DNA of 64,000 bases, taken from the NCBI GenBank assembly GCA_017962545.1, contig JAGCVD010000007.1, positions 1 through 64,000 of the forward strand, written 5' to 3'. This DNA is from Bacteroidales bacterium. Its GTDB lineage: Bacteria > Bacteroidota > Bacteroidia > Bacteroidales > P3. The notes under the pieces were generated by a model that was given only the letters and a program-made list of their open reading frames with translations, was not told where the DNA came from and did no database searches. Positions 84 through 56,777 of the stretch are shown here, one piece after another (position 1 is the first letter of the stretch; each line of letters opens with the position of its first letter). Position numbers and translations under genes: made by a program.

Positions 84-109
84 CGAACTGAAACTGAAAC
101 AACTGAAAC
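84..109. repeat. Short CTGAAA-type microrepeat
   Basis: Degenerate tandem copies of an ACTGAAA-like word lie just downstream of the stop codon of the 129-407 minus-strand gene. It is the first of the many 6-9 bp arrays that mark gene boundaries in this window. Confidence 0.6.
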
Positions 110-128
110 GCTCTGGCCATTTGTTGTT

Positions 129-407
129 TTACTTTTTCGAGGTTTTCTTTCCTACGCGGCCAGCGATCATCGCGTCCACTTTCTGTGCTATGGCCAGCGC
201 CTGGTGCACCAGTCGGTCGGGCAGCAGGTCGAACTGCTCTTCGGGCATCGTGAAGACGAAGTAGTAGCGGTTGTCGCGGCCCAGCGTCAGCGTGCAGTTG
301 TCCTCGCGGAAGAGGGGCTTGCCCTTTTTGCGGCGTGGGCGCTGGGTGATATAGACGTTGCCGTCGCGCATAGCCTGCACCTTGCAGTCGGCCGTGAAGG
401 CTTCCAT
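129..407 (-). CDS. Small conserved-looking hypothetical protein
   Basis: This 92-residue basic protein has no signal peptide or membrane segment. It carries an NCTLTLGRDNRYYFVF core and a lysine-rich tail, and it resembles small hypothetical proteins of Bacteroidales that I recognise only by general look, so no function is assigned. The ATG at 407 is the only in-frame start before a stop codon. Thirteen further open codons (LHILDFACTEYAE) precede that ATG and read plausibly as protein, so the gene may once have been longer, or it may be the 3' part of a broken gene. It stands alone, with a microrepeat behind it and a 370-base gap in front. Confidence 0.55.
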   Translation of the reverse strand: MEAFTADCKVQAMRDGNVYITQRPRRKKGKPLFREDNCTLTLGRDNRYYFVFTMPEEQFDLLPDRLVHQALAIAQKVDAMIAGRVGKKTSKK

Positions 408-664
408 CTCGGCGTACTCCGTGCATGCGAAGTCGAGGATGTGCAGTTACGGCCGCGAACCCTCACCGCAACCCTCGGCCAGATAACACGAAACGCGGTT
501 GAAAAAAATAATTTCACGAAAAGTTATCCACAGAGGGCGAGGAAATAAATTTTTGCCATTCCGCTCAACTTTGATTTCATCTGCGTTTCAGCACCTCGGA
601 AAAGAAAATGAATTTTCTCTTCGCTCGGTTTAAGAAACTTTCGTATCTTTGTGGCGTGAAGAGT
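408..664. other. Intergenic region before the thiamine operon
   Basis: I find no convincing gene here. The left part continues the open frame of the small upstream gene until a stop near 447. A single perfect DnaA-box-like nonamer lies at 524-532. At 645-652 there is a TATCTTTG element, matching the Bacteroides -7 box, which would start the riboswitch transcript. No good -33 TTTG is visible. Confidence 0.5.
645..652 (+). promoter_or_regulatory. -7 element of the thiamine operon promoter
   Basis: TATCTTTG matches TAnnTTTG and lies about 15 bases before the riboswitch. The -33 TTTG is not clear, so this is called from the -7 box and its position only. Confidence 0.5.
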
Positions 665-770
665 TCACAAAGGGGTGCGTTTATGTTGCACGTCTACAAA
701 GCAGTAGGCGCATAAACAGCTGAGAACAGACCCTCAAAACTTGATCGGGATAATGCCCGCGTAAGGAAAA
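665..770 (+). promoter_or_regulatory. TPP (THI-element) riboswitch
   Basis: The conserved THI pieces occur in order: GGGGTGC at 672-678, a P3 extension closed by GTTTATG (679-685) pairing with CATAAAC (711-717), CTGAGA at 720-725, ACCC at 730-733, CTTGATC at 740-746, and GGGATAATGCCCGCGTAAGG at 747-766. The aptamer ends about 5 bases before the ATG of the receptor gene. The AAGGAAAA segment is both its 3' edge and the likely ribosome entry region, so thiamine pyrophosphate probably represses translation. The three genes behind it are all thiamine uptake or activation genes, which supports the ligand. Confidence 0.95.
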
Positions 771-775
771 AGACT

Positions 776-3040
776 ATGGTAAAACACAACATTAGCTGTG
801 GCCGCTATCGCTTTTTTGAGGCCACCAGAATCAGCCGCCGGCAGATGATAGCCTGCCTTGTGTTCGGCATTTCATTTTTCAATTTTCAACTTTCAACTTT
901 AAAAGCCCAGGACACCGTGCGCACGCTCGATGAGGTGATGATACAGGACGTGCGCGTGAGCAACAAGGCGCCTCTGACCACCAGCACGGTGAGCCGCGAG
1001 GAACTCGACGACAGCCGCGCGGCGGTGAGCCTCCCCTACCAGCTGGAGACGCAGACCTCGGTGGTGGCCAGCAGCGAGAACGGCACCGTGGGCGCCACCA
1101 GCATCCGCATCCGCGGCGTGGATGCCTCGCGCATCAATGTGAACATCAACGGCATCACGCTCAACGACCCCGAGAGTCAGAGTGTCTTCTGGGCCAATAT
1201 CCCCAATATGGGCGGTATGGCGCAGAGCCTGCAGATACAACGTGGCGTGGGCGCCTCAACAGGCGGCAGCCCCGCCTTCGGCGCCGCCATCAATATGCAG
1301 ACTCTCAACGCACAGAACAGCGCCTACGGCCAAGCCGACTTGGGGCTGGGCAGCTGGAACACACGCCAGTATAGTGTCAGTGCCGGTAGCGGTATTCTGA
1401 AGAACGGTCTCTCGTTCGACTTCGCCTACAGCGGCCTGACCAGCGACGGATTCCTGCGTGGCGGACAGACCGACCAGCAGAGCTTCTTCGGCGGCATCAG
1501 CTGGTATGGCAAAAGGACGCTGGTGAAACTGCTCACCATTATCGGCCATCAGAACACCGGCATCACTTGGGACGGCGCCGACAGCGCCACCCTCGATGCC
1601 GACCCTCGCTACAACTCGGCGGGCGAGATGGATATCGACGGCAACACTTTCTACTACCGCAATGCCACCGACAACTACATGCAGCAGCACTACCAGCTCT
1701 ATGTGTCGCATCTGCTCGGCGAGCGTTGGAGCGTCAACGCAGCCCTCAACTACACCCGTGGCGACGGCTACGACGAGTACTACAAGAAGAATAAGAAGTT
1801 CAGCTCGTTCAATATGCCTTTCGCCGGCAAGAGCGACTTCATCACCCGCAAGATTATGGCCAACGACAGCTATACCGCCAACCTCTCGGCACGCTACACG
1901 GGCGAGAAGTCGACGCTCTCGTTGGGTGTCAACGCACTCCTTTTCGACGGTGACCACTACGGCAACGTACTATGGTGCCGCGACACCTCGATCCATCTCG
2001 ACGCCCCCTTCACCGACTGGTACAACTACCGCGGCCACAAGGTGGATGTCACCTCCTACATCAAGGGCACCTATGACTTCAACGACCGTCTGAACGCCTA
2101 TGCCGACCTGCAATTCCGCATGGTGGACTACACCCTCAACGGCCGCACCGACGACTGGAATGTTGTCACCGATGACTGGAACCTTTTCGACGACTTCACC
2201 AACCACTACCGCTTCTTCAATCCCAAGGCTGGTGTCAACTATCGCATCAACGACAACAGCCGCACCTACTTCGTGGCGGGCGTGATGGGGCGCGAGCCTA
2301 CCCGCAGCGACATCAAGGACTGCTACGCCAATGGCGACACCATCAAGGCCGAGGAGATGCTCGACCTGGAGTTGGGCTACCAGATAGCCCACAGCCGTTG
2401 GGCCTTCAGCGTCAACGCCTACGCCATGCTCTACAAAGACCAGCTCACCCCCAACGGCAATATCAGCAACGCTGGCTATGCGCTGATGGAGAACGTGGAC
2501 AAGAGCTACCGCCTCGGTATCGAACTGGAGGGCGGCTATCGGTTCTGCCGCCTATTCCGCATGGACGCCAACCTGACCCTCAGCGACAACAAGGCGCTTA
2601 ACGTCACCTATAGTGACTTCGCCGACGGCGACAGTCAGTTGCAGGCCGTCACCGGCAACACGCCGCTGGCCCTCTCGCCCTCGGTGGTGGGTGCCGCCAT
2701 CGCCACCATCACTCCCTGCAAGGATGCCAAGCTGCAGCTCATCGGCAAGTATGTCGGCAAGCAGTATGCCGACAACACAGGCCGCGAGTGCTACGCTATC
2801 GACCCCTACTTCATCGTCAACATGCGCGCCAGCTACACCTGGCACCTCAAAGGCACCAACGAGCTTGAGGCCCAGCTGGCCGTCAACAACGTGCTCGACC
2901 ACCACTACCGCCTCTCGGCTTGGGTGGGCGACTGGTTCGACGACTACACTACTCCGGGGACTAACTACTACTACCACAGCCGCGGATGGCTGCAGCAGCC
3001 CGGCATCAACTTCATGGGACGCGTGATATACCGATTCTAA
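776..3040 (+). CDS. TonB-dependent outer-membrane receptor, probably for thiamine
   Basis: This 754-residue TonB-dependent receptor has a plug domain near residues 45-170, with the IRIRGVDASRINVNINGI segment typical of plug domains. A long beta-barrel with many aromatic and Asp/Asn-rich strands follows, ending in terminal Phe (GRVIYRF). An N-terminal signal lies around residues 24-44, and part of it (FFNFQLSTLK) is translated from a 7-bp CAACTTT array. The gene sits directly under a TPP riboswitch and abuts a PnuC-type permease and thiamine pyrophosphokinase. The substrate is therefore inferred to be thiamine or a phosphate ester; the barrel itself does not show specificity. This arrangement is known for thiamine salvage in Bacteroidota. 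Confidence 0.92.
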   Translation: MVKHNISCGRYRFFEATRISRRQMIACLVFGISFFNFQLSTLKAQDTVRTLDEVMIQDVRVSNKAPLTTSTVSREELDDSRAAVSLPYQLETQTSVVASSENGTVGATSIRIRGVDASRINVNINGITLNDPESQSVFWANIPNMGGMAQSLQIQRGVGASTGGSPAFGAAINMQTLNAQNSAYGQADLGLGSWNTRQYSVSAGSGILKNGLSFDFAYSGLTSDGFLRGGQTDQQSFFGGISWYGKRTLVKLLTIIGHQNTGITWDGADSATLDADPRYNSAGEMDIDGNTFYYRNATDNYMQQHYQLYVSHLLGERWSVNAALNYTRGDGYDEYYKKNKKFSSFNMPFAGKSDFITRKIMANDSYTANLSARYTGEKSTLSLGVNALLFDGDHYGNVLWCRDTSIHLDAPFTDWYNYRGHKVDVTSYIKGTYDFNDRLNAYADLQFRMVDYTLNGRTDDWNVVTDDWNLFDDFTNHYRFFNPKAGVNYRINDNSRTYFVAGVMGREPTRSDIKDCYANGDTIKAEEMLDLELGYQIAHSRWAFSVNAYAMLYKDQLTPNGNISNAGYALMENVDKSYRLGIELEGGYRFCRLFRMDANLTLSDNKALNVTYSDFADGDSQLQAVTGNTPLALSPSVVGAAIATITPCKDAKLQLIGKYVGKQYADNTGRECYAIDPYFIVNMRASYTWHLKGTNELEAQLAVNNVLDHHYRLSAWVGDWFDDYTTPGTNYYYHSRGWLQQPGINFMGRVIYRF
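873..900. repeat. 7-bp microrepeat in the receptor signal peptide
   Basis: Four consecutive 7-mers (CATTTTT, CAATTTT, CAACTTT, CAACTTT) encode the end of the hydrophobic signal segment of the TonB-dependent receptor. Confidence 0.75.
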
Positions 3041-3640
3041 ATGAACATCCTCGACATCGTCGGCGCAGCCATCGGCCTGGTATTTGTATTCAGCGAGTAC
3101 AAGGCGAGCCGATGGCTGTGGCCGTCGAGTCTGCTGATGGCCGCCTTCTATGCCGTCATCAATTTCCGCATTGGGTGGTTTGCCAACATGGGCATCTGCC
3201 TCTATAACTTCGGCATCTCCATCTATGGCCTGCTGGTGTGGCGCGGTATCTTGAGGACGTCAAGACGTCAAGACATCAAGACGTCAAGTCGCGAGGACTC
3301 GAAGTCTCCCAGACAAATCTCCTCCTGTCCGGCACGCCTCTGGCCTTGGATTATCGCCGCCACAGGGGTGCTGACGCTGTTCTTCTACTGGCTGCTGCCC
3401 CTGCTGGGCGAGAGCAACAAGCCGCTGCTCGACGGCCTCAGCGCCTCACTAGGCATTGTGGGCATGTGGATGCTCTCGCAGAAGTACTGGGAGCAGTGGC
3501 TCTTCTGGCTGGTCAGCGAGCCTATCCTGGCCTACATCTACTTCTCCACAGGCTACACCGCCTCAGCCATCATGTACGTCATCTACGAAGTGTTCGTTAT
3601 CATGGGAATAATCCGATGGAAAAAGCTAAGCATATCGTAA
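3041..3640 (+). CDS. pnuC: PnuC-family vitamin permease (thiamine, PnuT type)
   Basis: This 199-residue inner-membrane protein has about seven hydrophobic segments. The Trp-rich PnuC signature near the C-terminus (KYWEQWLFWLVSEP, about residues 148-162) is clear. PnuC proteins facilitate uptake of a vitamin that is then trapped by phosphorylation. Here the next gene is thiamine pyrophosphokinase and a TPP riboswitch leads the operon, so thiamine is the likely cargo. The ATG follows the receptor stop codon directly. Between membrane segments, residues about 70-92 form a hydrophilic linker (RTSRRQDIKTSSRED) encoded by an 8-bp GACGTCAA array. It is not part of the usual family core. Confidence 0.92.
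   Translation: MNILDIVGAAIGLVFVFSEYKASRWLWPSSLLMAAFYAVINFRIGWFANMGICLYNFGISIYGLLVWRGILRTSRRQDIKTSSREDSKSPRQISSCPARLWPWIIAATGVLTLFFYWLLPLLGESNKPLLDGLSASLGIVGMWMLSQKYWEQWLFWLVSEPILAYIYFSTGYTASAIMYVIYEVFVIMGIIRWKKLSIS
3256..3308. repeat. 8-bp GACGTCAA array inside pnuC
   Basis: Four exact-length units (GACGTCAA, GACGTCAA, GACATCAA, GACGTCAA at 3256-3287) are followed by decayed copies to about 3308. The word is the reverse complement of the TTGATGTC-type word in the large array at 53998-54165. One unit gained or lost would shift the reading frame of pnuC. Confidence 0.85.
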
Positions 3641-4281
3641 TTCTCGCCGCCGGCGACTTCCCCACCCACGAGGTGCCGCTGCGCGCGCTGCGCGAGGCCG
3701 ACTTCGTGGTGTGCTGCGACTCGGCATATAAGGCAATTAAGAATGAAGAATTAAGAATTAAGAATTATGTGGTTATCGGGGACGGCGACTCGCTGACGGA
3801 GGACGACAAGCAGACGCTGGGCGACCGCTGGCTGCAGGTCGACGAGCAGGACTACAACGACCTGCACAAAGCCATGGAGTGGGTGAGTGCGGAGTGCGGA
3901 ACTCGGAATTCTGAGTTCAAAATTATTGCCGCTACCGGCAAGCGCGAGGACCATACGCTGGGCAATATCTCCTACCTCGTCACCTTCGCCGAGGAGCATC
4001 CCGGCGCCGATATCGAGATGCTCACCGACTACGGCCGCTTTACCTCAATGCGAGGGCGCCGTCGGTTTGTCAGTTTCCCGCGCCAGCAGGTCAGCATCTT
4101 CACCATGAATCCCGACTGTCCTATCGACAGCGAAGGGTTGAGGTGGCCGCTCGACGGCTTTCATGCCCGCCGCTGGTGGAATGCTACCCTAAACGAAGCC
4201 GTCGGCACCGAGTTCTCACTCAGCACCGACGGCTGGCTTGTCGTATTCCAGACGTACGAACCTAAAGGGCCATCAGTTTGA
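3616..4281 (+). CDS. Thiamine pyrophosphokinase
   Basis: This enzyme transfers pyrophosphate from ATP to thiamine to give TPP, trapping imported thiamine. The 221-residue protein shows the family landmarks: a CCDSAYKA segment, VIGDGDSL near residue 55, TGKREDHTLGN near residue 110, and a VSIFTM strand leading the C-terminal beta-sandwich. The start at 3616 (MEKAKHIVILAAGDF) overlaps the end of pnuC by 25 bp, indicating translational coupling. Two in-frame 7-bp arrays interrupt the coding sequence (NEELRIKNY and SAECGTRNSEFK). The last 20 bp overlap the convergent end of purD. Confidence 0.93.
   Translation: MEKAKHIVILAAGDFPTHEVPLRALREADFVVCCDSAYKAIKNEELRIKNYVVIGDGDSLTEDDKQTLGDRWLQVDEQDYNDLHKAMEWVSAECGTRNSEFKIIAATGKREDHTLGNISYLVTFAEEHPGADIEMLTDYGRFTSMRGRRRFVSFPRQQVSIFTMNPDCPIDSEGLRWPLDGFHARRWWNATLNEAVGTEFSLSTDGWLVVFQTYEPKGPSV
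3734..3768. repeat. 7-bp GAATTAA array inside thiamine pyrophosphokinase
   Basis: The units GAATGAA, GAATTAA, GAATTAA and GAATTAT run in tandem at 3741-3768, preceded by GCAATTAA. They encode the surface loop KNEELRIKNY just before the conserved GDGDS motif. Confidence 0.85.
3885..3919. repeat. 7-bp GAGTGCG/GAGTTC array inside thiamine pyrophosphokinase
   Basis: Five consecutive 7-mers (GAGTGCG, GAGTGCG, GAACTCG, GAATTCT, GAGTTCA) encode the loop before the TGKREDHT motif. The word family matches the array at the start of namZ. Confidence 0.8.
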
Positions 4282-9695: not shown

Positions 9696-9777
9696 GGAAG
9701 GAGACTGGAGATAAGGAGGGAAGGAGACAGGAGGGAAGGAGATAAGGAGGGAAGGAGACAGTAGTTAAGTAGATAAG
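9694..9777. repeat. GGAGATAA/GTAGTTAA microrepeat array
   Basis: About ten 7-8 bp words (GGAGACT, GGAGATAA, GGAGGGAA, GGAGACA, then GTAGTTAA, GTAGATAA) fill the whole junction between the TlpA-like gene and the Mrp gene. The same word family recurs at 10861, 24734, 33824, 39004 and 54300. Confidence 0.85.
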
Positions 9778-9782
9778 AAATT

Positions 9783-11992: not shown

Positions 11993-11993
11993 T

Positions 11994-12017
11994 GCGTGAG
12001 TGCGTTAATGCGTTAAC
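11994..12017. repeat. 8-bp GCGTTAAT array
   Basis: Three exact 8-mers (GCGTGAGT, GCGTTAAT, GCGTTAAC) fill the gap right up to the GTG start of the next gene. Confidence 0.8.
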
Positions 12018-22789: not shown

Positions 22790-24001
22790 TCAAAAGGAAT
22801 AGACCATACTGAGCGAGAGGCGGAGATTTCCCACGGGGATATCGTAACCCGCGCAGGTGTATTCGACTTCACCGGTGAAAGAAAGGCCGGTGCCGGTGAG
22901 GTAGGTCAGACGGGGCTGGACGCGCCAGAGGTACGACATGTCGTAGCCACGGCCCAATACCGCTGTGGTGCTGTAGATGGCCAACACGGGGCCTTCATCT
23001 TGTTTTTGGGCATAGCCCACAAAGAGGCCTGGACGCCAGTGACCGCAGTTGCGCTCCACATCGAGCCATACGGTGTTGAAGGTCCAATCACGGAACATAA
23101 CGTCGTCACCCGTCACACTCGTGTAGATTATGTAGCCGCCCATCGAACAGCCTTCGTAAAGGCTGTTGTTCAGCAGGGTTTGAACCTTAAGGGTTATACC
23201 ACCGAACTTGAGGCTGCCAAACACAGAGTAGGAAAGCGAGGTGTGCAATGTGCCGTCGGCAGCCATACCCATGGTGTTCACCACCGGCTGGATGGTCTTG
23301 GCGTTGACGGCGGCACCTACGAAGAGGCCACCCTTGCGGTAACGCAGCTGGGCGTTGAGTTCGGGCACCAGGCTGTGACGGGCGAACTGGGTGCTGCTGG
23401 TGGGAACACCATTAAGTAACCCCTGGCTCATATTGTCCAACTGCCATTGTGCCACTGTCACCGCCTCGAAACCTTTCAAGTGGTACTCGTAGCGCACCTG
23501 TGGCTGGCGGGCGTAGCAGTGAAAAGGAGCGCCCATGTTCAAAGGGTTGGTCATGGGCATAATCTCATGGACAACCATGGCGTACCAGTATTGGCCTGCC
23601 AGCAGGCGGTGGTGCTCCCAATTCATGTCAATATAGGCGTGTCGCAGGCGCAGATTGTCGATGGTGGCGTTGGTGCTACCGGTGAAGTCACCCTCGACGT
23701 AGGCCGAGGTTTTGGCTCCCAGCATATCGGGACCGGTGATGCGGAGGTTCAGACGGGCGGTGATGGCCAGCATGTCGGCCTGCCAGCCGTCGTTGATGTC
23801 GTTGCCGAGACTGTCGAGCAAGATAGGCTTGGGGTAGAAAAGCATCATGTCCTCGCGACCTCCCACCACAGCGCGGCTGTCGGCATAGTAGTGGGGATTC
23901 ACGAAGCCGTGCCAGTCAAGGCTGAAGTTCGATTGGGCTCGGAGTACTCCGAACACTCCGAGTATTCCGAATACTCCGGCAAAAGTTAATACCTTCTTCA
24001 T
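22790..24001 (-). CDS. Porin-like outer-membrane beta-barrel protein
   Basis: This 403-residue exported protein starts MKKVLTFAG, and its signal is largely a translated 9-bp array (GVFGILGVFGVL). The mature part has alternating polar and hydrophobic strands rich in Tyr and Trp (NFSLDWHGFVNPHYYADSR, LRHAYIDMNWEHHRLLAGQ) and ends LRLSLSMVYSF, as in outer-membrane barrels. It resembles the hypothetical porin-type proteins of Bacteroidota. Substrate is unknown. It overlaps the preceding membrane-protein gene by 4 bp, so the two probably work together. Confidence 0.8.
   Translation of the reverse strand: MKKVLTFAGVFGILGVFGVLRAQSNFSLDWHGFVNPHYYADSRAVVGGREDMMLFYPKPILLDSLGNDINDGWQADMLAITARLNLRITGPDMLGAKTSAYVEGDFTGSTNATIDNLRLRHAYIDMNWEHHRLLAGQYWYAMVVHEIMPMTNPLNMGAPFHCYARQPQVRYEYHLKGFEAVTVAQWQLDNMSQGLLNGVPTSSTQFARHSLVPELNAQLRYRKGGLFVGAAVNAKTIQPVVNTMGMAADGTLHTSLSYSVFGSLKFGGITLKVQTLLNNSLYEGCSMGGYIIYTSVTGDDVMFRDWTFNTVWLDVERNCGHWRPGLFVGYAQKQDEGPVLAIYSTTAVLGRGYDMSYLWRVQPRLTYLTGTGLSFTGEVEYTCAGYDIPVGNLRLSLSMVYSF
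23941..23979. repeat. 9-bp GGAGTACTC array in the porin signal peptide
   Basis: Four exact 9-mers (GGAGTACTC, CGAACACTC, CGAGTATTC, CGAATACTC) give a three-residue periodic signal sequence (GVF GIL GVF GVL) on the minus strand. The core AGTACT is palindromic. Confidence 0.88.
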
Positions 24002-24733: not shown

Positions 24734-24838
24734 TTGGGTAGTTAAGTAGGTAAGTAGTTATCGCTTCGCTCACCCTTTGGGCAGTAGTTAAGACAATTCC
24801 TGTGAAAAACTACTTAACTACTGTCTCCTTAACTACAA
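24734..24838. repeat. GTAGTTAAG arrays in inverted orientation
   Basis: The 121-bp gap between cysS and the membrane-protein gene holds copies of GTAGTTAAG and GTAGGTAAG, then the reverse complement (CTTAACTACTGTCTCC). Perfect 10-bp arms AGTAGTTAAG (24783-24792) and CTTAACTACT (24813-24822) could form a hairpin behind cysS. This is one of six sites of the same word family. Confidence 0.8.
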
Positions 24839-28142: not shown

Positions 28143-28675
28143 AGCTCAGCTACTATTTCTGTCACCAGACCGCTCTCGACCGAGGAGAAGTCCTGCGAGG
28201 CGGCATAGTCGCGGTAGCGGGAGAACGTCTGTTCAAAGTCGGCATCGGGGTCGACGGTGTTGACGAAGCGTACCTTGATGGTGATGGTGAGACGGTTCAT
28301 GGAGACCTCGTCGGACGAGGAGAGCGCCGAGGCGCGGGTGTCGTAGCCGACTATCTCGCCGCTGACCTGCAGGTCGCCATCGTCAGAGATTACCGTCAGA
28401 GAGGTCTGGCTGGCGAACATCTGGCGCAGGTCGTCGCTGAGTTTCTGGCTCAGCTGGGGGTTCACCGTAGCGGCATAGTTGGGGAAGGTGGCCACGGAGA
28501 TGGTCTTGGCGCCAGGGGGTATGGAGGCGCCCGTGAAGGAGTAGCCCCCCGAGCAACCCCACAGGAGGAGACAGGAGATAAGGAGGTAAGAAGATATGGC
28601 GATTAGCAAATGCGCTGGTCGTCTCTCACCTATAACCTTTAACCTTTCACCTTTAATAATCTCTCGAGTCTTCAT
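28103..28675 (-). CDS. lptE: LptE-type outer-membrane lipoprotein
   Basis: This 190-residue lipoprotein has a lipobox near residue 40 (LLLWGC), then GYSFTGASIPPGAKTISV and a two-layer alpha/beta domain as in LptE, which plugs the LptD barrel for lipopolysaccharide export. The N-terminal 20 residues before the signal (IIKGERLKVIGER) are translated from a 7-bp array, so the true start may be a later codon. It starts inside the small upstream gene and overlaps the DUF2723 gene at its end. Confidence 0.85.
   Translation of the reverse strand: MKTREIIKGERLKVIGERRPAHLLIAISSYLLISCLLLWGCSGGYSFTGASIPPGAKTISVATFPNYAATVNPQLSQKLSDDLRQMFASQTSLTVISDDGDLQVSGEIVGYDTRASALSSSDEVSMNRLTITIKVRFVNTVDPDADFEQTFSRYRDYAASQDFSSVESGLVTEIVAELCEDVFNKSVVNW
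28628..28655. repeat. 7-bp ACCTTTA array at the lptE start
   Basis: ACCTATA, ACCTTTA, ACCTTTC and ACCTTTA run in exact 7-bp register. They encode the odd N-terminus of LptE and touch the stop codon of the 56-residue gene. Confidence 0.82.
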
Positions 28676-33823: not shown

Positions 33824-33866
33824 AAGGAGACAGTAGTTAAGTAGTTAAGACAATACTACCGTCTCT
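33824..33866. repeat. GTAGTTAAG array with inverted arms
   Basis: AGGAGACAGTAGTTAAGTAG is followed by an imperfect complement (ACTACCGTCTC), giving GAGACAGTAGT/ACTACCGTCTC arms at 33827-33837 and 33855-33865. It lies between namZ and the nitroreductase gene and could act as a hairpin. Confidence 0.75.
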
Positions 33867-33871
33867 GTTTC

Positions 33872-35017
33872 TTATTTATATATTAAGTATTTTTCGCGTA
33901 TTTTGAGAAACTCGTCGAGGGCGGGCTGCCACGAGGCGCGGATTTCCTCCTCGCTCATACCGGCCTCTATCTGCTTGCGAAGGTCGCCGTTGCCGGCCAG
34001 CTTCTCGAAGAAGTTGCTCTTCTGGAAGAACGGCTTGATTGCTTGATTGCCTGATTGCCTGATTGCTTGAGTACGACGGTACATCTCCATCAGGTATTTG
34101 AGGCTAAATGCCGCAGGGGCCTCTTCCCGGCGGAGGTCGAGGGTGTCGGTGCCATAGGTAACCCATTCGAACGGCCAGTCGGTGCCGCGCCCCACGCCGC
34201 AGTTGGTGCCCTCGAAGAGGCAGAGGCTCGGGTAGAGGGCGACGGCGTGGGCGTTGCGCAAATTGGGCGACGGCGGCACGGGCAACTCGTAGCCCACCGA
34301 GTCACGTTTGTAACCCTGCAAGGGCATCACCGTGAGGTCACACTTGATGCCGTCTTTCAGCCATCCTTCGCCGTTGATCATCTGGGCATACTCCCCTATC
34401 GTCATTCCATAGACCACCGGCACGGGATGCATACCCACGAAGGAACGGCAGGTGGCAGTGTCGAGGACGGGGCCATCAACATAATGCCCGTTGGGGTTGG
34501 GACGGTCAAGCACTATCAACGGTATGTTGTTCTCTGCGCAGGCTTCCATCACATAGTGCAACGTGCTGATATAGGTGTAGAAGCGGCACCCCACGTCCTG
34601 CAGGTCGAAGAGTACCACATCGATGTCCTTCATCTGCTCGGGCGTAGGCTTCTTGTTCTTGCCATATAATGATATGATGGGTATGCCTGTTTGGGGGTCA
34701 ACGCTGTTGTCGACATGGGCTCCCGCTTCTGCGTTCCCTCGGAAGCCGTGCTCAGGGCAAAATATCTTCCGGATATCGACTCCCAACGCCAGCAGGGTGT
34801 CAACCAGATGGGTATTTCCCACAATGGAAGTCTGGTTGCCGACAATAGCAATATGGGAAGTTAAAAGTTGTGATGGGTCGCTCATCAGCACCTCGGCACC
34901 CGTCCGCAGCGGCGTCTCCTGCGGCACCGCAGCAGGCTGAGCGTGGCAAGCGCACAGTAGTTGCGAAAACACCGCAACACACAGCGCCAACCTCCGAACT
35001 CCGAACTCCAAACTCAT
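33872..35017 (-). CDS. namZ: NamZ-like exo-beta-N-acetylmuramidase (DUF1343)
   Basis: This 381-residue secreted protein of the DUF1343 family has the conserved FCPEHGFRGNAEAGAHVDN, VVLFDLQDVGCRFYTYISTL, LDRPNPNG and EGTNCGVGRGTDWPFEW blocks. NamZ enzymes remove N-acetylmuramic acid from peptidoglycan fragments, a recycling step found in many Bacteroidota. The signal lies at residues 9-26. The first eight residues and a loop near residue 322 (TQAIRQSGNQAIKPF) are encoded by microrepeats. Confidence 0.9.
   Translation of the reverse strand: MSLEFGVRRLALCVAVFSQLLCACHAQPAAVPQETPLRTGAEVLMSDPSQLLTSHIAIVGNQTSIVGNTHLVDTLLALGVDIRKIFCPEHGFRGNAEAGAHVDNSVDPQTGIPIISLYGKNKKPTPEQMKDIDVVLFDLQDVGCRFYTYISTLHYVMEACAENNIPLIVLDRPNPNGHYVDGPVLDTATCRSFVGMHPVPVVYGMTIGEYAQMINGEGWLKDGIKCDLTVMPLQGYKRDSVGYELPVPPSPNLRNAHAVALYPSLCLFEGTNCGVGRGTDWPFEWVTYGTDTLDLRREEAPAAFSLKYLMEMYRRTQAIRQSGNQAIKPFFQKSNFFEKLAGNGDLRKQIEAGMSEEEIRASWQPALDEFLKIREKYLIYK
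34033..34072. repeat. 8-bp GCTTGATT array inside namZ
   Basis: Five exact 8-mers (GCTTGATT, GCTTGATT, GCCTGATT, GCCTGATT, GCTTGAGT) encode the loop QAIRQSGNQAIK of the hydrolase. Confidence 0.87.
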
Positions 35018-35021
35018 AACT
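34994..35021. repeat. 7-bp CCGAACT array at the namZ start
   Basis: CCGAACT, CCGAACT, CCAAACT and CATAACT run in 7-bp register. They overlap the namZ start codon (MSLEFGVRR) and share the word with the array at 3885-3919. Confidence 0.82.
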
Positions 35022-35022
35022 C

Positions 35023-35460
35023 TTAGTTCTTCCCCGTGTGACCAAATCCGCCGGCGCCACGTTCGGTGTCGGTGAGTTCCTCGACTTGGATAATCTCGGC
35101 CTGCTCGTGGCGGGCGATGACCATCTGGGCGATGCGTTCGCCGTCATTGATGACAAAGTCCTCGTTGCTGAGGTTGATAAGGATAACGCATATCTCGCCG
35201 CGGTAGTCGGAATCGATGGTGCCGGGCGAGTTGAGCACGGTGATGCCTTTCTTCAGCGCCAGACCGCTACGGGGACGCACCTGCGCCTCGTAGCCCGCCG
35301 GCAGCTCCATAAAGAGGCCCGTCTTCACCAATCCGCGCTCCAGCGGTTTCAACGTGATGGGACCTTCCGGCAGGAAAGCCCTCAGGTCCATACCCGCCGA
35401 CTGCGAAGTCTCGTACTTCGGCAGCGGATGATGGGAGGTATTCTTGATTTTTATCTGCAT
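35023..35460 (-). CDS. dut: dUTP diphosphatase
   Basis: This 145-residue trimeric dUTPase cleaves dUTP to dUMP and diphosphate. Motifs 1-5 are present: [42 protein letters not shown] and the C-terminal [12 protein letters not shown]. The start at 35460 excludes a microrepeat-encoded extension. It shares strand with clpP and trmD. Confidence 0.96.
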
Positions 35461-35461
35461 A

Positions 35462-35506
35462 AGGTCTTTAAGGACCTTAAGGACTCTAAGGACCTTAAGG
35501 ACGTTA
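35462..35506. repeat. 9-bp AGGACCTTA array between dut and clpP
   Basis: Five exact 9-mers (AGGTCTTTA, AGGACCTTA, AGGACTCTA, AGGACCTTA, AGGACGTTA) fill the junction. The clpP stop codon (35504-35506) is the last three bases of the last unit. Confidence 0.92.
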
Positions 35507-36167: not shown

Positions 36168-36893
36168 TTATCTTTTTTTAAGGTCTTTAATGTCTTTAAG
36201 GTCCTTAAGGTCGTTAGAAGCCTTAAGGAGGTCGGGTCTGCGCTCCTGGGTGCGTTGGAGGGCCTGCTCCATGCGCCACTGCTCTATCTTGGCGTGGTTG
36301 CCGCTGAGGAGCACGTCGGGCACCTTCCATCCGCGGAACTCCGGCGGACGGGTGTACTCCGGCGGAGCCACGAGGCCATCCTGGAATGAGTCACCAAGAG
36401 CCGACTGCTCGTCGCCGAGGACACCGGGCACCAGACGTATCACCGTGTCACAGATGACCGCCGTGGCCAACTCGCCACCGGTGAGGACGTAGTCACCGAT
36501 GCTTATCTCCTTGGTGATGAAGTGCTCGCGCACACGCTCGTCGACACCCTTGTAGTGGCCACACAGTATCATCAGGTTCTCGGCCAGCGACAGCTGGTTG
36601 GCCATGGGCTGCGAAAGCATCTCGCCGTCGGGGGCGGTGTAGATGACCTCGTCGTAGTGGCGCTCCTTTTGGAGGCCCTCGATACAATTGGCCAGCGGCT
36701 CCACGGCCATCACCATGCCGGCGGCACCGCCATAAGGGTAATCGTCGACAGAGCCATACTTGGTCAGCGAGTAGTCGTGCAAGTCGTGGAACACCACCTC
36801 CACCAGGCCCTTCTTCTGGGCCCTTTTGAGGATGGACTCCTCAAAGAACATAGTCATCATGTTCGGGAAGAGGGTCAATATATCTAACCTCAT
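36168..36893 (-). CDS. trmD: tRNA (guanine-N1)-methyltransferase
   Basis: TrmD methylates G37 of tRNAs using SAM. The 241-residue SPOUT enzyme has [38 protein letters not shown] and [11 protein letters not shown], plus the C-terminal [11 protein letters not shown]. The C-terminus continues as [16 protein letters not shown], a three-residue periodic tail translated from a 9-bp array. The start is the second Met (36893), immediately before RLDILTLFP, which is where TrmD proteins begin. Confidence 0.96.
36181..36225. repeat. 9-bp AGGTCCTTA array at the trmD C-terminus
   Basis: AGGTCTTTA, ATGTCTTTA, AGGTCCTTA, AGGTCGTTA and GAAGCCTTA repeat in 9-bp register and encode the tail [12 protein letters not shown] of TrmD. 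The word is the same as the dut-clpP array 700 bp away. Confidence 0.9.
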
Positions 36894-36906
36894 AGCAAAT
36901 CTCAAT

Positions 36907-36941
36907 AACCTATAACCAATAACCTATAACCCATAACCCCT
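36907..36941. repeat. 7-bp AACCTAT array
   Basis: Five exact 7-mers (AACCTAT, AACCAAT, AACCTAT, AACCCAT, AACCCCT) fill the gap between the M23 peptidase and trmD genes; the peptidase stop codon touches its edge. Confidence 0.87.
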
Positions 36942-38181
36942 ATCTCAGCTTCAGTTTCTGTCCGATACGGAGGGTGCTGTTCTCGCTGATGCCGTTCAGC
37001 TGGCAGAGCTTCTTCACCGTGGTGCCGTTGCGTTTGGCTATCTTGCTCAGCGTGTCGCCGCTGCGGACGGTATAGGTGGAGGCACCTTGGTTGGAGCTGG
37101 CCGTCGAACTGGTTTGACCGGCAGAACTAGGCTTACTCGCTGATGTCTTGGCTGCGGCACTGCCGCTGACACGCAGCCGGTCGCCCGGATGCAGTATCTT
37201 GGTCTCTTTGATGCCGTTGAGCTGACAGAGACGGCGCACGGTGGTGCCGTTGCGGCGGGCTATCTTCTCCAGCGTGTCACCCTGACGCACACGGTACCAG
37301 CCACCACTGGCGGTGCCTGTACCGCCACCTTTGCCGCCTTTGGCCACCTTACGGAACGAGTTGGAGGTGAGCTCCAGCCGGTCGCTGATAAGGTCGTGCG
37401 TGGAGCAGTCCAGCACATTTTCGGGGTTGATGGCATTGCCCATGTAACGCACCTCAAAGTGGAGATGGCTGCCGAAAGAGCGGCCTGTGTTGCCACAGAG
37501 TCCGATGATGTCGCCACTCTTCACCTGGTCGCCGACGGAGACATGGCGCGCCGACATGTGGGCGTAGTAGGTCTCCAGGCCGTTGGCATGATGGATGATG
37601 ACGAGGTTGCCGTAACTCTTGTTGCGTTTGGAGATGCGCACCACGCCGTCAAAAGCGGCGTAGATGGGCTCGCCTGTGGGCTGCGCCAGGTCGAGGCCGT
37701 AGTGGAAACGGCGACGGCGCGGACCGAAGTGACTCGTGGGACGGGCTGTCCATGGCGTAGGCCAGGTGAACTTATGCCCCGCAGCATCGTTGCGCAACTC
37801 AATATAGATGGGTTCGGTGATGGAACTGACATCGAACTTAGGCAGGTGTATCATGGCGGTATCGAAGCCCTCCATCAATATCTCGTCCTCACTCTCCGCA
37901 CCTTCGTCGTTCATAGGGAAAGTCTCGGGGACATCCTCGTCTTCGTCGTCATCACCATCGTTCACCTCACGGAAAAAGGGCACCTGATACATCAGGTTGT
38001 CGTCCTCAGCCTCTTCTTCGGGCTCCACAACCACCCCTTTGTACTCCTCGTCATCGTAGATAACGTCTAGTTTACCCACCTTTACCTCCTGCTTCTTCGG
38101 AGGGCCGTCGACCTGTGCCGAAGCCCACAGCGGGAGTGCCAACAATCCAAATAACAATACGATACGCTGTATATATCTCAT
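36940..38181 (-). CDS. M23 peptidoglycan endopeptidase with two LysM domains
   Basis: This 413-residue secreted protein has a signal ending near ASAQ. A strongly acidic spacer covers about residues 45-105, and an M23 metallopeptidase domain covers about 140-265. Its zinc ligands are in HYGLDLAQP and HLHFEVRY. Two LysM domains follow (WYRVRQGDTLEKIARRNGT near 297 and YTVRSGDTLSKIAKRNGT near 370). It probably binds and trims peptidoglycan during growth or division. A perfect promoter lies ahead of it. Confidence 0.95.
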   Translation of the reverse strand: MRYIQRIVLLFGLLALPLWASAQVDGPPKKQEVKVGKLDVIYDDEEYKGVVVEPEEEAEDDNLMYQVPFFREVNDGDDDEDEDVPETFPMNDEGAESEDEILMEGFDTAMIHLPKFDVSSITEPIYIELRNDAAGHKFTWPTPWTARPTSHFGPRRRRFHYGLDLAQPTGEPIYAAFDGVVRISKRNKSYGNLVIIHHANGLETYYAHMSARHVSVGDQVKSGDIIGLCGNTGRSFGSHLHFEVRYMGNAINPENVLDCSTHDLISDRLELTSNSFRKVAKGGKGGGTGTASGGWYRVRQGDTLEKIARRNGTTVRRLCQLNGIKETKILHPGDRLRVSGSAAAKTSASKPSSAGQTSSTASSNQGASTYTVRSGDTLSKIAKRNGTTVKKLCQLNGISENSTLRIGQKLKLR

Positions 38182-39000: not shown

Positions 39001-39003
39001 TCG

Positions 39004-39069
39004 CCTTAACTACTTACCTCCTTAACTACTTACCTCCTGTCTCCTTATCTCCTTAACTCCTGTCTCCTT
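39004..39069. repeat. CTTAACTAC/CTCCTGTCTC array
   Basis: Reverse-complement copies of the GTAGTTAAG and GGAGACAGGAG words fill part of the 172-bp gap between the ABC ATPase and permease genes. The remainder (39070-39172) shows no gene. Confidence 0.8.
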
Positions 39070-39172
39070 TTTCGCTACATTTTTTTTAATTCAGCGGTGC
39101 TCAAGGCCTTTGCCTCATCAAGCTCGGCAGCCACAGCACCCTTCGGTCAGGCAGATCTCCTGTCTCCTCGAT

Positions 39173-40192
39173 TCAATATCTCTTCTTATTCTTATACAAC
39201 AGATAAATAAACAGCGGCGCTCCGACGATGGCCGTAAGGCTACCCACCGGCAACTCGCTGGGGCGCAGCAGATAGCGGGCCAGCGTGTCGCACACCAGCA
39301 CGAACAGCGCGCCGCAGAGCATCGAGTAGGGCACCACCTTGCGATTGTCAGCTCCCGCCACCAGCCTGACGGCATGGGGGACGATGAGACCCACGAAGCC
39401 GATGACGCCGCACGAGCTGACGGCGAAGGCCACCATCAATGTGGTCGCCAACAGCAATACCCGCTTCACCTTCTCCACCTCCACACCCATGCTCTGCGCC
39501 GCCTCGCTGCCGGCCAGCAGCAGGTTGAGGTCGCGTCCGTAGTAGAGCACCACGGCGATGCCGACCACCGCCACCGGCGCCAGCACGGCCACATCGGTCC
39601 ACGACGAGCTGCCGAACGAGCCCATGGTCCAGAAGATGATGCTGTCCATCTTCTCCTGGTTCAGCACCATGAGGAACGAGATGAGCGCTGAGATGAGCAA
39701 CGTCAGACAGACACCCGTGAGCAGCAGCGTGGTGGTGTGCATACGGTTGCCTATCGAGGCGATGCGGTAGATGAAGAGCACCGTCAGCAATGCCGACACC
39801 AGGGCCATCCCTCCTACCCCCCACAGCCAGGCCTCCAGGCCCAGCAGTATGGCCACGGCGGCACCCAGCGAGGCGCCACTGCTGACACCCAGCACGTATG
39901 GGTCCGTCAAGGGGTTGCGGAAGATACTCTGGTAGGCTGCGCCGCAGACACTCAGCACCGCACCCACCAGCACGCTCATGACTACACGCGGCAGACGCAG
40001 ACGCCAGAAGATGGGCGAGTGGAATATCTCGTCAAGCCTAAAGTCGACGGCGCCCAACAGACAGCTGCCTGCCATAGCGGCCACCAGCAGCACCGTCAGA
40101 CCCGCCACCACCCATAAATTAAGCCTCACCCCCGACCCCTCTCCTATGAGGCGAGGGGGGTAAGTAGACCTTTTATGTACGGAACTCTTCAT
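39173..40192 (-). CDS. FecCD/BtuC-family ABC permease
   Basis: This 339-residue permease has about ten membrane helices and the FecCD landmarks RLPRVVMSVLVGAVLSVCGA, GASLGAAVA and GFVGLIVPHAVRL. It moves an iron chelate, haem or cobalamin across the inner membrane with the ATPase downstream. The first 24 residues (KRSTYPPRLIGEGSGVRL) are unlike the family and are encoded by a palindromic repeat arm. The start at 40192 lies between the two arms. Confidence 0.9.
   Translation of the reverse strand: MKSSVHKRSTYPPRLIGEGSGVRLNLWVVAGLTVLLVAAMAGSCLLGAVDFRLDEIFHSPIFWRLRLPRVVMSVLVGAVLSVCGAAYQSIFRNPLTDPYVLGVSSGASLGAAVAILLGLEAWLWGVGGMALVSALLTVLFIYRIASIGNRMHTTTLLLTGVCLTLLISALISFLMVLNQEKMDSIIFWTMGSFGSSSWTDVAVLAPVAVVGIAVVLYYGRDLNLLLAGSEAAQSMGVEVEKVKRVLLLATTLMVAFAVSSCGVIGFVGLIVPHAVRLVAGADNRKVVPYSMLCGALFVLVCDTLARYLLRPSELPVGSLTAIVGAPLFIYLLYKNKKRY
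40124..40165. repeat. REP-like palindromic element, left copy
   Basis: CCTCACCCCCGACCCCTCTC followed by CTATGAGGCGAGGGGGG forms an imperfect hairpin. Its outer arm is the inverse of the right copy (20 of 22 bases match). It encodes part of the N-terminus of the ABC permease. Confidence 0.85.
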
Positions 40193-40217
40193 GGGTGCTT
40201 TCAGCTCCCCTCTCCTG

Positions 40218-42220
<2,003 letters not shown>

Positions 42221-52232: not shown

Positions 52233-52446
52233 CAAAAATTTTTTTATTACCAACCATGCCTCATTTTTTAACAAATTTTTAACATTTTATCTACTTGGAA
52301 ATCAAGGCTCTGAGCCACCCTCCCCCTACCCTCCCCCTACCCTCGCCCTAGCCGCACCCTGAAAGCCTCTCATCCAGAAGGGTTTACGCGGGGTGAAAAA
52401 ATGGCGTTTTTCGGGGTACGATAAGAGGGGAAAAATGGAAAAATGG

Positions 52447-52479
52447 AAAAAAGAAACGCCGGCCCGCGGGGGTCGGCGT
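52447..52479 (-). terminator. rpsT terminator
   Basis: A GC-rich stem (ACGCCGACCCCC with GGGCCGGCGT) followed by TTTCTTTTTT on the minus strand, 26 bases behind the rpsT stop codon. Confidence 0.88.
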
Positions 52480-53700: not shown

Positions 53701-53997
53701 ATCCGTTTCGATTTTTGTCTCTTAATAACGAAGCTCCCATCGTAATATTTTGTCGCCTCGAAAAAAGTCCTCCACTCCCCTCTCCCACAAGCCAGGTCTT
53801 TGCGCTACACCATTAAGTTAAATTCACTTAACAATATCCTTATTCCAGATTGTATAACTCTTACAAAATCAATGCTTAATAAGGCGGGGATAAGGGGATG
53901 AGTAAGAGATGAGTAAGAGATGATGGCTAATTGGTTGGGAGTCAATACTGTTTTTTGTGATTATGTTAAATAGAAAACTGGCGGGAGGGAGTAGCTT

Positions 53998-54165
53998 GAT
54001 GTCTCGATGTCTTGATGTCTCGTGGTGTGCCGTCGGCTCGGCCGACAAGTCTCGATGTCTCGAAATCTCGAAGTCTCGAAGTCTTGATGTCTCGATGTCT
54101 TGTTGTCTCGAAGTCTTGTTGTCTCGAAGTCTTGTTGTCTCGAAGTCTCAAAGACTCACAGACTC
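53998..54165. repeat. Large 8-bp GATGTCTC/GAAGTCTT array
   Basis: About seventeen 8-mers (GATGTCTC, GATGTCTT, GAAATCTC, GAAGTCTC, GTTGTCTC and others) run in register. They are broken once at about 54022-54048 by a segment holding the hairpin GTCGGC-TCG-GCCGAC. The word is the inverse of the GACGTCAA array in pnuC. It is the longest microrepeat in the window. Confidence 0.9.
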
Positions 54166-54211: not shown

Positions 54212-54221
54212 CATCCACTTT

Positions 54222-55829: not shown

Positions 55830-55866
55830 ACTAGCCTAGCCTTGCTAGCAGGGCTAGCCCGGCTAG
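55830..55866. repeat. 9-bp TAGCCnnnC array behind tnaA
   Basis: TAGCC, TAGCCTTGC, TAGCAGGGC, TAGCCCGGC, TAG in 9-bp register from the tnaA stop codon to the terminator. The CTAG core is normally rare in bacterial DNA. The same word is inside the next gene. Confidence 0.9.
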
Positions 55867-55880
55867 AAAAAAACAGAGAC

Positions 55881-55912
55881 AGCCCCGCCGTGACCCGGCG
55901 GGGCTTCTTTTT
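55881..55912 (+). terminator. tnaA terminator
   Basis: The stem AGCCCCGCC/GGCGGGGCT with a 7-base loop is followed by TCTTTTTTT. Confidence 0.93.
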
Positions 55913-55947
55913 TTATATTTTTTAACTATAGATATTAAAAGATTTCG

Positions 55948-55955
55948 TATATTTG
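55948..55955 (+). promoter_or_regulatory. -7 box of the four-helix-bundle gene
   Basis: TATATTTG matches TAnnTTTG, 76 bases before the ATG; no clear -33 box. Confidence 0.55.
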
Positions 55956-56030
55956 CACTTTGGCGCGAGCCCCGCAGTTTGCTGATATCCAACTAAGTAT
56001 CAACAAGATGCGCGTCAGCGTCGGACAATT

Positions 56031-56777
56031 ATGATGAAAAAAGAAACAGGAAATAGAAGCAATAATACTAGCCAAACTAGCTATCCCCGCTTCCTCAAAA
56101 AACAGGACCGCTGGGAGAGCCTCTATTTCTACCAGAAGACCGACGTCCTCTACCAGATGACCTACCGCTTCGCCCAGCGCTTCCTTAAGAAGGGCGACCG
56201 CACCGTCGACCAGATGGTGCAGGCCGCGCGCTCCGGCAAGCAGAATATCGTCGAAGGCATGGCCGACGGCGTCACCTCCACCGAGATGGAGCTCAAGCTC
56301 CTCAACGTGGCCCGCGCCAGCATTAAAGAGCTGCGCGAAGACTACACCGACTACCTCGCCAGCCGCGGCCTGGCCGTCTGGAGCGACGGTCACCCGCGCT
56401 ACGACACCATGCTCGCCTTCTGCCGCGAGCACAACCGCGTCGACGACTACCAGCCCTTCTTCCAGCAGTGGAGCGACGAGGAGATGGCCAACACCGGCCA
56501 CACCCTCTGCCACATGGTCGACCGCATGATGACCACCTATATCGAGCAGCTTGAGATGCGGTTCGTCACCGAAGGGGGCATCAAAGAGCGTATGACCGCC
56601 GCCCGCCTCGGCTATCGCACCGACCAGCGCGAGGCGCTCCGCCGTCTCGAAGAGGAGAACAGCACCCTCCGCGCTGAAGTAGAACGCCTAAACGAGATTA
56701 TTGCTAGCCTGACTAGCCATCCTAGCACCCCTAGCCCTGCTAGCCCGACTAGTAAGGCTATCCCTGCTAGAAAATAA
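56031..56777 (+). CDS. Four-helix-bundle suffix-domain protein
   Basis: This 248-residue protein is of the four-helix-bundle family related to the 23S rRNA intervening-sequence proteins. The hallmark ARSGKQNIVEGMADGVTSTE (residues about 64-83) and the following ELKLLNVARASIKELREDY are clear. A second helical segment, a possible coiled coil (LRRLEEENSTLRAEVERLNE, about 201-220), and a low-complexity tail (SHPSTPSPASPTSKAIPARK) follow. Both the N-terminal stretch (NNTSQTSYP) and the tail are encoded by the 9-bp TAGCCnnnC array. Function is unknown. It lies 27 bp ahead of the right giant gene. Confidence 0.88.
   Translation: MMKKETGNRSNNTSQTSYPRFLKKQDRWESLYFYQKTDVLYQMTYRFAQRFLKKGDRTVDQMVQAARSGKQNIVEGMADGVTSTEMELKLLNVARASIKELREDYTDYLASRGLAVWSDGHPRYDTMLAFCREHNRVDDYQPFFQQWSDEEMANTGHTLCHMVDRMMTTYIEQLEMRFVTEGGIKERMTAARLGYRTDQREALRRLEEENSTLRAEVERLNEIIASLTSHPSTPSPASPTSKAIPARK
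56069..56086. repeat. 9-bp TAGCCnnnC units at the 5' end of the four-helix gene
   Basis: TAGCCAAAC and TAGCTATCC in 9-bp register, in frame, near codons 13-19. Confidence 0.65.
56705..56770. repeat. 9-bp TAGCCnnnC array at the 3' end of the four-helix gene
   Basis: Seven exact 9-mers (TAGCCTGAC, TAGCCATCC, TAGCACCCC, TAGCCCTGC, TAGCCCGAC, TAGTAAGGC, TATCCCTGC) encode the C-terminal tail. Confidence 0.92.

Follow-up and report, generated by a model that had tools for sequence, protein, structure and literature searches.

In the 64,000-nucleotide stretch of Bacteroidales DNA analysed here (the window), and in further sequence sampled from the same genome, short degenerate tandem arrays with units of 7, 8, 9 or 11 bp are present far in excess of chance, both between and inside genes. 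The window is contig C27 of an assembly (G000) of 1.95 Mb in 42 contigs that is 81% complete. We hold it about evenly balanced that these arrays are arms, whole or remnant, of tiny dispersed elements; the elements would form several families and, as judged from the words tested, belong to one Bacteroidales genus. A full element would be a hairpin, composed of a tandem arm of 7-, 8-, 9- or 11-bp units, a short loop or core and an inverted arm; in the species G012, which is the sister of G000 in a 22-species tree, the arm would consist of four 7-bp units plus 2 nt, or of at least three 11-bp units. Copies would spread within a genome, a step supported for the families with conserved loops or cores, and would settle in operon junctions, or in genes if their length keeps the frame and their word lacks stops, with each species amplifying its own words. 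Solo arrays may be remnants after the loss of one arm; copying could proceed in trans by an enzyme, or by template switching on hairpins during replication, and selection may filter location, with copies in junctions and permissive loops persisting. By enolase identity the congener G061 (97%), which was not fetched whole, is as near to G000 as G012 (96%) or nearer; no second strain of the G000 species was found. The host of the window is probably a gut bacterium, since the nearest named neighbours of its enolase are uncultured Bacteroidales metagenome-assembled genomes, several of them ruminant-derived.

Arrays were detected by a lag-p self-match score (match +1, mismatch -1.5), with segments scoring at least 12 taken as strict and periods that are multiples assigned to the smallest unit found. 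At thresholds of 12, 10.5 and 9, the window contains 18, 20 and 32 arrays of unit 7-9, as against 0.15, 0.35 and 1.7 in dinucleotide-preserving shuffles; the 25 or more sites counted in the preliminary description of this DNA are therefore reached at the lenient threshold, and the strict one gives 18. The G000 sample as a whole (the window and 33 fetched stretches, that is, 34 pieces and 711,584 bases) holds 90, 26, 26 and 25 arrays of unit 7, 8, 9 and 11; the corresponding counts at unit 5, 10 and 13 are two, one and zero, and dinucleotide shuffles of the sample yield almost no arrays. The units of 7, 8 and 9 bp named at first are thus discrete classes, in a list from which the 11-bp class was missing. 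Units divisible by three (3, 6, 12, 18 and so on) are also present, as expected of coding repeats. Within the called genes (630 kb; the gene map, with 566 genes and 89% coding, comes from a simple coding model built for this analysis), strict arrays of unit 7, 8 and 9 number 46, 10 and 15, and one within-gene codon permutation leaves 0, 0 and 1. Because shuffles and codon permutation leave almost none, pure chance is rejected as the origin of the arrays, and the possibility allowed for at the outset, that they are no denser than in shuffled sequence, does not hold for the window or for the genes.

In G012 (1.65 Mb), there are 195, 10, 50 and 197 arrays at unit 7, 8, 9 and 11, four at 10, one at 13 and none at 5, so that its set consists mainly of units 7 and 11; its 9-bp arrays may be mostly coding repeats, because 45 different words occur among the 50. 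The other congeners, represented by 59 loci (303 kb, a biased sample fetched in part around an array-bearing gene), show 43, 11, 11 and 16 arrays in the same four classes, three at unit 10, three at 13 and none at 5. Loci from other Bacteroidota (1.17 Mb, grouped by enolase identity) have about one third of the 7-bp density, and the other classes are scarce in them, the 11-bp class most of all.

Each site was initially thought to have its own word. Many words do exist in each genome, but they recur among loci: for canonical 7-bp words the recurrence is 0.029 in G000 vs. 0.0043 after letter shuffling (about 7-fold) and 0.078 vs. 0.0064 in G012, whereas the match probability between the two genomes is 0.017. 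With words shared among loci above the letter-shuffled level, one private word per site is rejected. The most frequent 7-bp words of G000 are AACTCCG, AAGAATT and AAAATTG, with seven each of the 90 arrays, and those of G012 are ACCCACT (34), AAAATTG (30) and AAAGTGG (18) of 195; the two genomes have nine 7-bp words and no 11-bp word in common. One G012 11-bp pattern occurs 186 times there and is absent from all 58 other congener genomes searched, and the 7-bp pattern AGTGGGT is patchy, being found in 25 of 59 congener genomes with most matches (141) in G012, although its reversed control is not clean, as other congener words match it. The 9-bp word TTAAGGACC, with up to three mismatches, was found in 11 of 49 congener genomes (116 matches in G002 and 49 in G000) and in none of 32 genomes of other genera, its reversed control giving single matches in four genomes; AGGAGATAAGGAGACAGGAG has 45 matches in G000 and single ones in seven of 197 genomes from different genera within the order. 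The reversed-pattern control was uninformative in one scan, in which the reversed pattern was the same array in another register. In short, the species carry different word vocabularies. The start of each word had also been described as nearly fixed and the rest as variable, and variants do fall in fewer columns than at random (2.5 vs. 3.0 in 61 G000 7-bp arrays), which is partly explicable because variant units can be copied.

Evidence for elements larger than a single array is clearest in G012. Many of its ACCCACT arrays are the arms of hairpins, in which four AGTGGRT units plus AG are followed by a loop and an inverted arm, the whole measuring about 76 nt. Among 20 such elements matched on both arms, the loop is 15-16 nt long in 18 and 13 and 26 nt in the others (the last full unit being counted as arm), and the loops of elements in opposite orientations are mutual reverse complements. 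The 11-bp family AATACTACCGT, found in one of 59 congener genomes, forms a larger palindrome at 36 G012 loci (C1:10004 and C16:2013 among them), and the 22 loci compared resemble one another in both the centre and the outer flanks. The centres of such 11-bp palindromic elements resemble ACGCTTTTAAAGCGT in G012, and arms of CCAAAGAAATACC occur in G000 (L060:6526, L062:18681 and L063:4463). Adjacent arrays of the same unit in G012 are inverted in 26 cases, direct in four and otherwise arranged in three at 7 bp, and at 11 bp the corresponding numbers are 37, 0 and 8. An inverted partner lies within 70 bp of 61 of 193 7-bp arrays and 102 of 197 11-bp arrays in G012, as compared with 1 and 4 in shuffled flanks; in G000 the figures are 9 of 89 and 10 of 24, vs. 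0 and 2, and the 3 of 26 for the 9-bp class also exceed the shuffled level.

In G000, shared sequence takes the form of composite elements. Among 299 junction sequences, 73 pairs match at E 1e-9 or better, part of which can be caused by the tandem arrays alone. Among these pairs is the 8-bp family AGGAGATA / AGTAGTTA, which stands on either side of near-identical cores at loci far apart: the composite at 39001..39182 of the window (minus strand), with 8- and 7-bp arms around a unique core, is identical at 160 of 183 positions to a C12 locus near 137 kb, with the core nearly identical, and another pair of loci agrees at 87 of 89. Two junctions of G061 (L072) bear the same series of different word blocks, with identity at 207 of 232 positions (89%). 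The window itself contains a hairpin element at 26894..26974 (minus strand), made of two inverted 7-bp arrays about 16 nt apart and read in frame in a TMEM260/PMT-like gene (26400-28049); a fold of -28.8 kcal/mol was obtained for 26880-26990, and 19 codons here are absent from the G012 ortholog. An inverted pair of AGTAGTTAAG-family arms at 24738..24836 (minus) matches another locus at 63 of 71 bp of a common part. At five loci (L046:19737, L047:2279, L050:9325, L057:14307 and L062:15959), blocks of AGTAGTTAAG terminate in GACAAATG or GACAATG and contain the start codon of the following gene, and the block at 33828..33849 (plus) ends in GACAAT.

Comparison with orthologs bears on whether arrays arrive as extra DNA. 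For 65 in-gene arrays of G000 a match was present in G012, and 50 of these had a spanning alignment (15 were dropped), of which at least two, L053:8084 and L055:13880, are probably to paralogs and were not removed. A gain of at least four residues in G000 relative to G012 was seen at 18 of the 50, as against 50 of 3,836 random windows, and local identity at the in-gene arrays was 0.43 vs. 0.78. A lenient detector picked up a G012 array at 19 of these 50, at least three of which resemble ordinary coding repeats or a paralog; for the 7-bp class, 12 of 33 in-gene sites have a counterpart of the same unit at the corresponding place in G012, compared with 27 of 1,500 random windows. The words at these shared sites differ by 1-4 of 7 letters, with a mean of 2.4 vs. 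3.5 for random pairs. In the opposite direction, 7 of 19 G012 hairpin positions could be mapped to G000: three that lack a G000 array amount to +75 and +123 nt in frame and +88 nt at an apparent gene end, a fourth to +84 nt in a gene with a weakly repetitive segment in its G000 copy, and the remaining three positions are occupied in G000 by a different array, in two cases one of the 9-bp family.

Junctions are similarly patchy. The 7-bp array GGTTATN at 36905..36942 (minus) lies between the M23/LysM gene and trmD, a junction that is a compact stop-start in most of the congeners compared: among 17 readable loci, GGTTATN arrays are present in four (G000, G008, G023 and G001), other repeat fragments are visible by eye in L072, G036 has a longer array-free gap, and the other eleven, including G012, G010 and G029, are compact. 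At the following junction, between trmD and clpP, the 9-bp array at 36177..36216 (minus, 3' end of trmD) has its word in common with G002; 8-bp words stand in G010, G001 and G004, and no array is recognized in G012, G007, G024, G029 and G016 (G008 and L082 were not judgeable). Overall, a G012 array is present at 10 of 36 junctions that bear a G000 array and at 18 of 179 that do not.

The widest comparison concerns the thiamine pyrophosphokinase gene (3616-4281), in which the window has 7-bp arrays at 3735..3767 (plus, AATTAAG; site 1) and 3885..3918 (plus, GAGTGCG; site 2). A match was present in 55 species, 30 loci were fetched and 22 were aligned, with arrays in 13 of the 22 at site 1 and in 16 at site 2. 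The words at both sites differ between G000 and G012, several congeners have still other words at site 1, and orientation varies among species; species with GTGGAAA are three residues longer at site 1. When words were assigned by hand to five classes at site 1 (labels including G019 and G250, which were not flagged there) and nine at site 2, parsimony required 11 steps vs. 12.6 shuffled (P = 0.15) and 12 vs. 14.1 (P = 0.036), a fit of the word classes to the tree that is weak at best.

The preliminary description placed the arrays at gene edges and also inside genes, and both parts stand. After exclusion of 11 of 167 arrays at the ends of fetched pieces, 74 of 156 G000 arrays of unit 7-9 (with 14-16) are intergenic, as compared with 670 of 6,721 random positions (Fisher p = 1.2e-31), and the remaining 82 nonetheless lie inside called genes. 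At co-directional junctions many arrays start on the stop codon or a few bases away, and some span the gap to the next start. At a somewhat relaxed threshold, arrays whose start is no more than 15 nt from a stop have a purine-rich sense strand in 45 of 53 cases, vs. 81 of 143 array-free junctions; in these arrays stop triplets are more numerous on the sense than on the antisense strand in 32, fewer in 9 and equal in 12, and for array-free starts more numerous in 58 and fewer in 48 of 143. The G000 11-bp class is intergenic in 18 of 19 cases, 11 of them between divergent genes (6 of the 25 arrays, at piece ends, being excluded). In most in-gene cases coding potential is high in the same frame on both sides of the array, from which it follows that 7- and 8-bp units are read in frame within real genes; the few arrays with poor coding potential downstream may mark miscalled gene ends. 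The genes read through 7- or 8-bp arrays in the window encode thiamine pyrophosphokinase, a NamZ-like enzyme, DapB and a nicotinamide mononucleotide (NMN) transporter, and peptides such as QLSTFNFQLST, NSELRTPNSEL-like sequences, RSSEFGVRSSE and NEELRIKN recur from in-gene arrays.

Several observations weigh against dispersed elements as the source of the arrays. In G000, adjacent inverted pairs are few (4 of 5, 1 of 3, 0 of 1 and 1 of 3 adjacent pairs at units of 7, 8, 9 and 11 bp), and an inverted partner within 70 bp is absent for 80 of 89 7-bp and all 24 8-bp arrays. Sixteen of the 50 in-gene arrays show no gap relative to G012, and visual inspection of C6:11553, where the flanks are diverged, revealed no target-site duplication. 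Array-bearing junctions are no longer than their G012 counterparts (n = 36 vs. 179; median difference 0.5 vs. 0 nt, p = 0.34), so that junction arrays, taken together, do not demonstrate insertion, and net length gain as a general rule at junctions is rejected. At site 1 of thiamine pyrophosphokinase, the array of the AATTAAG/AATTAGG species seems to replace native codons and to add none, because the loop is as long as in the array-free G016 and G024. Neither a Y1 transposase nor a reverse transcriptase was found in the 81%-complete assembly of G000, and G008 and G009 are also without both. Dispersal does not by itself explain the ruler (7, 8, 9 and 11 rather than 10), the arrays that leave length unchanged, or why sites are reused.

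Local slippage, by which 7-11 bp units would be made and homogenised in place while words drift and selection against frameshifts leaves arrays at gene edges, as in long simple-sequence repeats (LSSRs), is a possible but not a probable account. An excess of heptamers is known in bacteria and was ascribed to polymerase slippage by Mrazek et al. (as related in passages of PMC4679880 and PMC4692102), other Bacteroidota hold 7-bp arrays at lower density, junction arrays bring no net length gain, and the word distance at shared sites lies below random, which makes some drift in place likely. However, different loci share a vocabulary, loops and cores are conserved, inverted pairs outnumber direct ones in G012, words stand in opposite orientation at one site, and, since the in-gene units are mostly of 7 bp (46 vs. 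15 of 9 bp), slippage by one unit would frameshift genes in which 7- and 8-bp units are in frame. In-place rewriting, in which arrays at fixed sites are overwritten from other arrays by ectopic gene conversion or a dedicated writer, so that the unit length persists and the word is replaced, appears doubtful to a similar degree: it would suit the in-gene 7-bp sites that G012 shares with mostly different words, the thiamine pyrophosphokinase arrays whose word classes are so little tied to phylogeny, and the unchanged loop length at site 1, but AATTAAG and GTGGAAA are too dissimilar for homologous conversion, many in-gene arrays are length gains, no writer is identified, and independent insertions into one permissive loop would give a similar picture. 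In a bolder form, which we entertain only tentatively, a genus-wide repeat-writing activity with a ruler of 7, 8, 9 or 11 nt would place or replace arrays at fixed landing sites; the thiamine pyrophosphokinase loops would be such sites, at which sister species keep the site and period and swap the word, often without a change in length, and the hairpin elements would be products or templates of the writer.

Selection for period and strand in RNA- or DNA-binding motifs, for example in the control of translation or mRNA stability in operons, seems very unlikely to be the general cause. The purine bias after stops and the AGTAGTTAAG blocks over five start codons speak for it, and translational control has been proposed for TAACTGA repeats (MacGregor 2015); yet the arrays are patchy at orthologous junctions and differ there in word, half of them lie in genes, and the vocabularies of G000 and G012 are strongly different. 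Of the three ideas offered in the preliminary description, selfish micro-expansion thus comes closest, as families with conserved loops or cores have been amplified separately in each species, site-specific repeat writing fits the part of the data in which the same positions bear different words, sometimes at equal length, and boundary marks of transcription or replication find little support, since half of the arrays are in genes, the purine bias near stops notwithstanding.

In their behaviour the proposed dispersed elements are best read as akin to repetitive extragenic palindromic (REP) sequences, miniature inverted-repeat transposable elements (MITEs), Rickettsia palindromic elements (RPEs), LSSR heptamers and TAACTGA repeats, although at least one defining feature of each known system tested is lacking or undecided here. 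Terminal inverted repeats like those of MITEs are present for part of the arrays, but not for most G000 7- and 8-bp arrays. The short tandemly repeated repetitive sequences of filamentous cyanobacteria are heptamer classes of few recurrent words; the present arrays are alike in their heptamers, but they occur in Bacteroidales with further unit lengths and fall outside that definition. Slippage, as we read it, should give locus-independent words, whereas words, loops and cores are common to loci here. Rfam at the gathering threshold returned tRNA as the sole match, and no description of such elements was found in the open literature, including that on Bacteroidales tandem and in-frame repeats, a search outside of which most subscription journals lay.

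LSSRs (Mrazek et al. 2007, via PMC4679880 and PMC4692102) and the heptameric simple-sequence repeats of Xanthomonas and Nostoc (PMC4692102) are over-represented heptamers near or between genes. Head-to-tail units of 1-11 nt beyond chance are present here as in LSSRs, with the same heptamer excess, a location mostly near or between genes and variation at the same place among related species; the present arrays differ in that they come in several discrete units including 11, possess in some cases inverted arms whose loops are conserved, use many words per genome and often lie, with units of 7 and 8 bp, inside genes. The TAACTGA direct repeats known from Beggiatoaceae, cyanobacteria and some Bacteroidetes (7 bp, often 2-6 copies, near start codons, patchy; PMC4679880) have one word, as opposed to dozens of species-differing words and hairpins. 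RPEs are about 150 bp long, are dispersed in one genus, encode a conserved peptide and lie in frame in unrelated metabolic genes (PMC10969869); small palindromes in frame are a likeness, as two G012 elements are absent from G000 and the window hairpin at 26894-26974 is absent from G012, but it does not extend to solo arrays, and the tandem 7-11 bp units, the length of the G012 7-bp element and the Bacteroidales host are different. REP sequences, their paired forms (bacterial interspersed mosaic elements) and the associated RAYT transposases involve high-copy, species-specific small palindromes, often 3' of genes and in inverted pairs (PMC3733652), whereas no Y1 transposase was found in G000, the arms here are tandem arrays, and many are in frame in genes. 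In Borgs, fast-evolving tandem repeats lie in and between genes, with in-gene units that are all multiples of three and perfect or nearly so (PMC9879509), and the in-gene units here are mostly of 7 bp and degenerate.

As candidates for a copying enzyme, Y1 transposases (PF01797) are encoded in 8 of 12 congener genomes, and were not found in G000 (81% complete), G008, G009 and G029. Seven of 12 Y1 loci viewed (16 were fetched) have arrays of unit 7-11, including six arrays in L254 and a hairpin of a G012 11-bp word in L261 (G012), and five have none of units 7, 8, 9 or 11. A Y1 transposase or reverse transcriptase as a required driver is therefore not supported, although a driver may lie in the 19% missing from the G000 assembly. 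In L254 (G002), repeated 43-nt inverted arms, CCCCAGAC...GTCTGGGG, surround the Y1 transposase gene; these are REP-like and unrelated to the arrays that crowd it (four loci were viewed).

Most bacterial genes would be expected not to accommodate foreign DNA, and here small repeats whose unit lengths do not fit the codon are read in frame within housekeeping genes in several species. Should the repeats prove to be elements, they would rank with the smaller DNAs that invade genes and might supply new protein segments and signal peptides; should they be written in place, a DNA-writing process with a fixed ruler would still be waiting to be discovered. In practice, the array repeats could fragment short-read assemblies and lead gene callers astray in this group. 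One congener contig terminates within a composite array (L072:16080-16536), which is expected if they break such assemblies.

The other arrays of the window are as follows. On the plus strand, a TTTCAAC-like 7-bp array (870..903) lies in the 5' part of a TonB-dependent receptor open reading frame (ORF; 776-3040), where the translation reads as a signal-peptide-like stretch. The 8-bp array GACGTCAA (3256..3291) is in the PnuC-like NMN transporter gene (3041-3640), which is six codons longer there than in G012; a mixed 8/7-bp array of the AGGAGATA / AGGAGAC family (9700..9777) occupies most of the junction 9695-9807; the 8-bp array GCGTTAAT (11993..12016) is 5' of a gene called at 12018; and the 9-bp array CTAGCCnnn (56704..56752) is at the 3' end of gene 56031-56777. 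On the minus strand, a 9-bp array (23938..23978) forms codons 8-22, near the N terminus of gene 22790-24001. Near-start arrays at 870-903, 23938-23978, L048:5854 and L048:7723 encode signal-peptide-like stretches rich in F, S, I, L and V. Further minus-strand arrays are a 7-bp array (28628..28654, sense GGTTAAA) in a co-directional junction, an 8-bp array (34033..34070) in the NamZ-like gene 33872-34927, whose G012 ortholog is without nine codons, a 7-bp array (34992..35031, sense AGTTCGG) across the stop codon of gene 35023-35460, and the 9-bp array TTAAGGACC (35460..35506), which runs from the stop codon of the ClpP-like gene 35504-36166 to the next start. The 7-bp array GAAAGAG (40430..40464, minus) lies in dapB, which has the same length as three orthologs compared; an 11-bp array (52317..52360, minus), of the class absent from the preliminary description, and the 8-bp array GGAAAAAT (52429..52451, minus) follow, and two 8-bp arrays, GATGTCTC / AAGTCTCG (53995..54148, no strand assigned), flank a short GC-rich core.

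In addition, a dispersed hairpin, CCCCTCTCC...GGAGAGGGG, is found at about 40110-40230, at the 3' end of dapB and the 5' end of a FecCD gene, and is read in frame as a 12-residue peptide in the window; a further copy, in G012, lies in the ortholog of L063:3975, at a site that is taken up in G000 by a 7-bp array. Two very large frames also lie in the window: 42298-52128 on the minus strand (3,276 aa), and, at 56901-63998, a plus-strand call of about 2,366 codons that overlies a minus-strand ORF of 1,271 aa (60168-63983).

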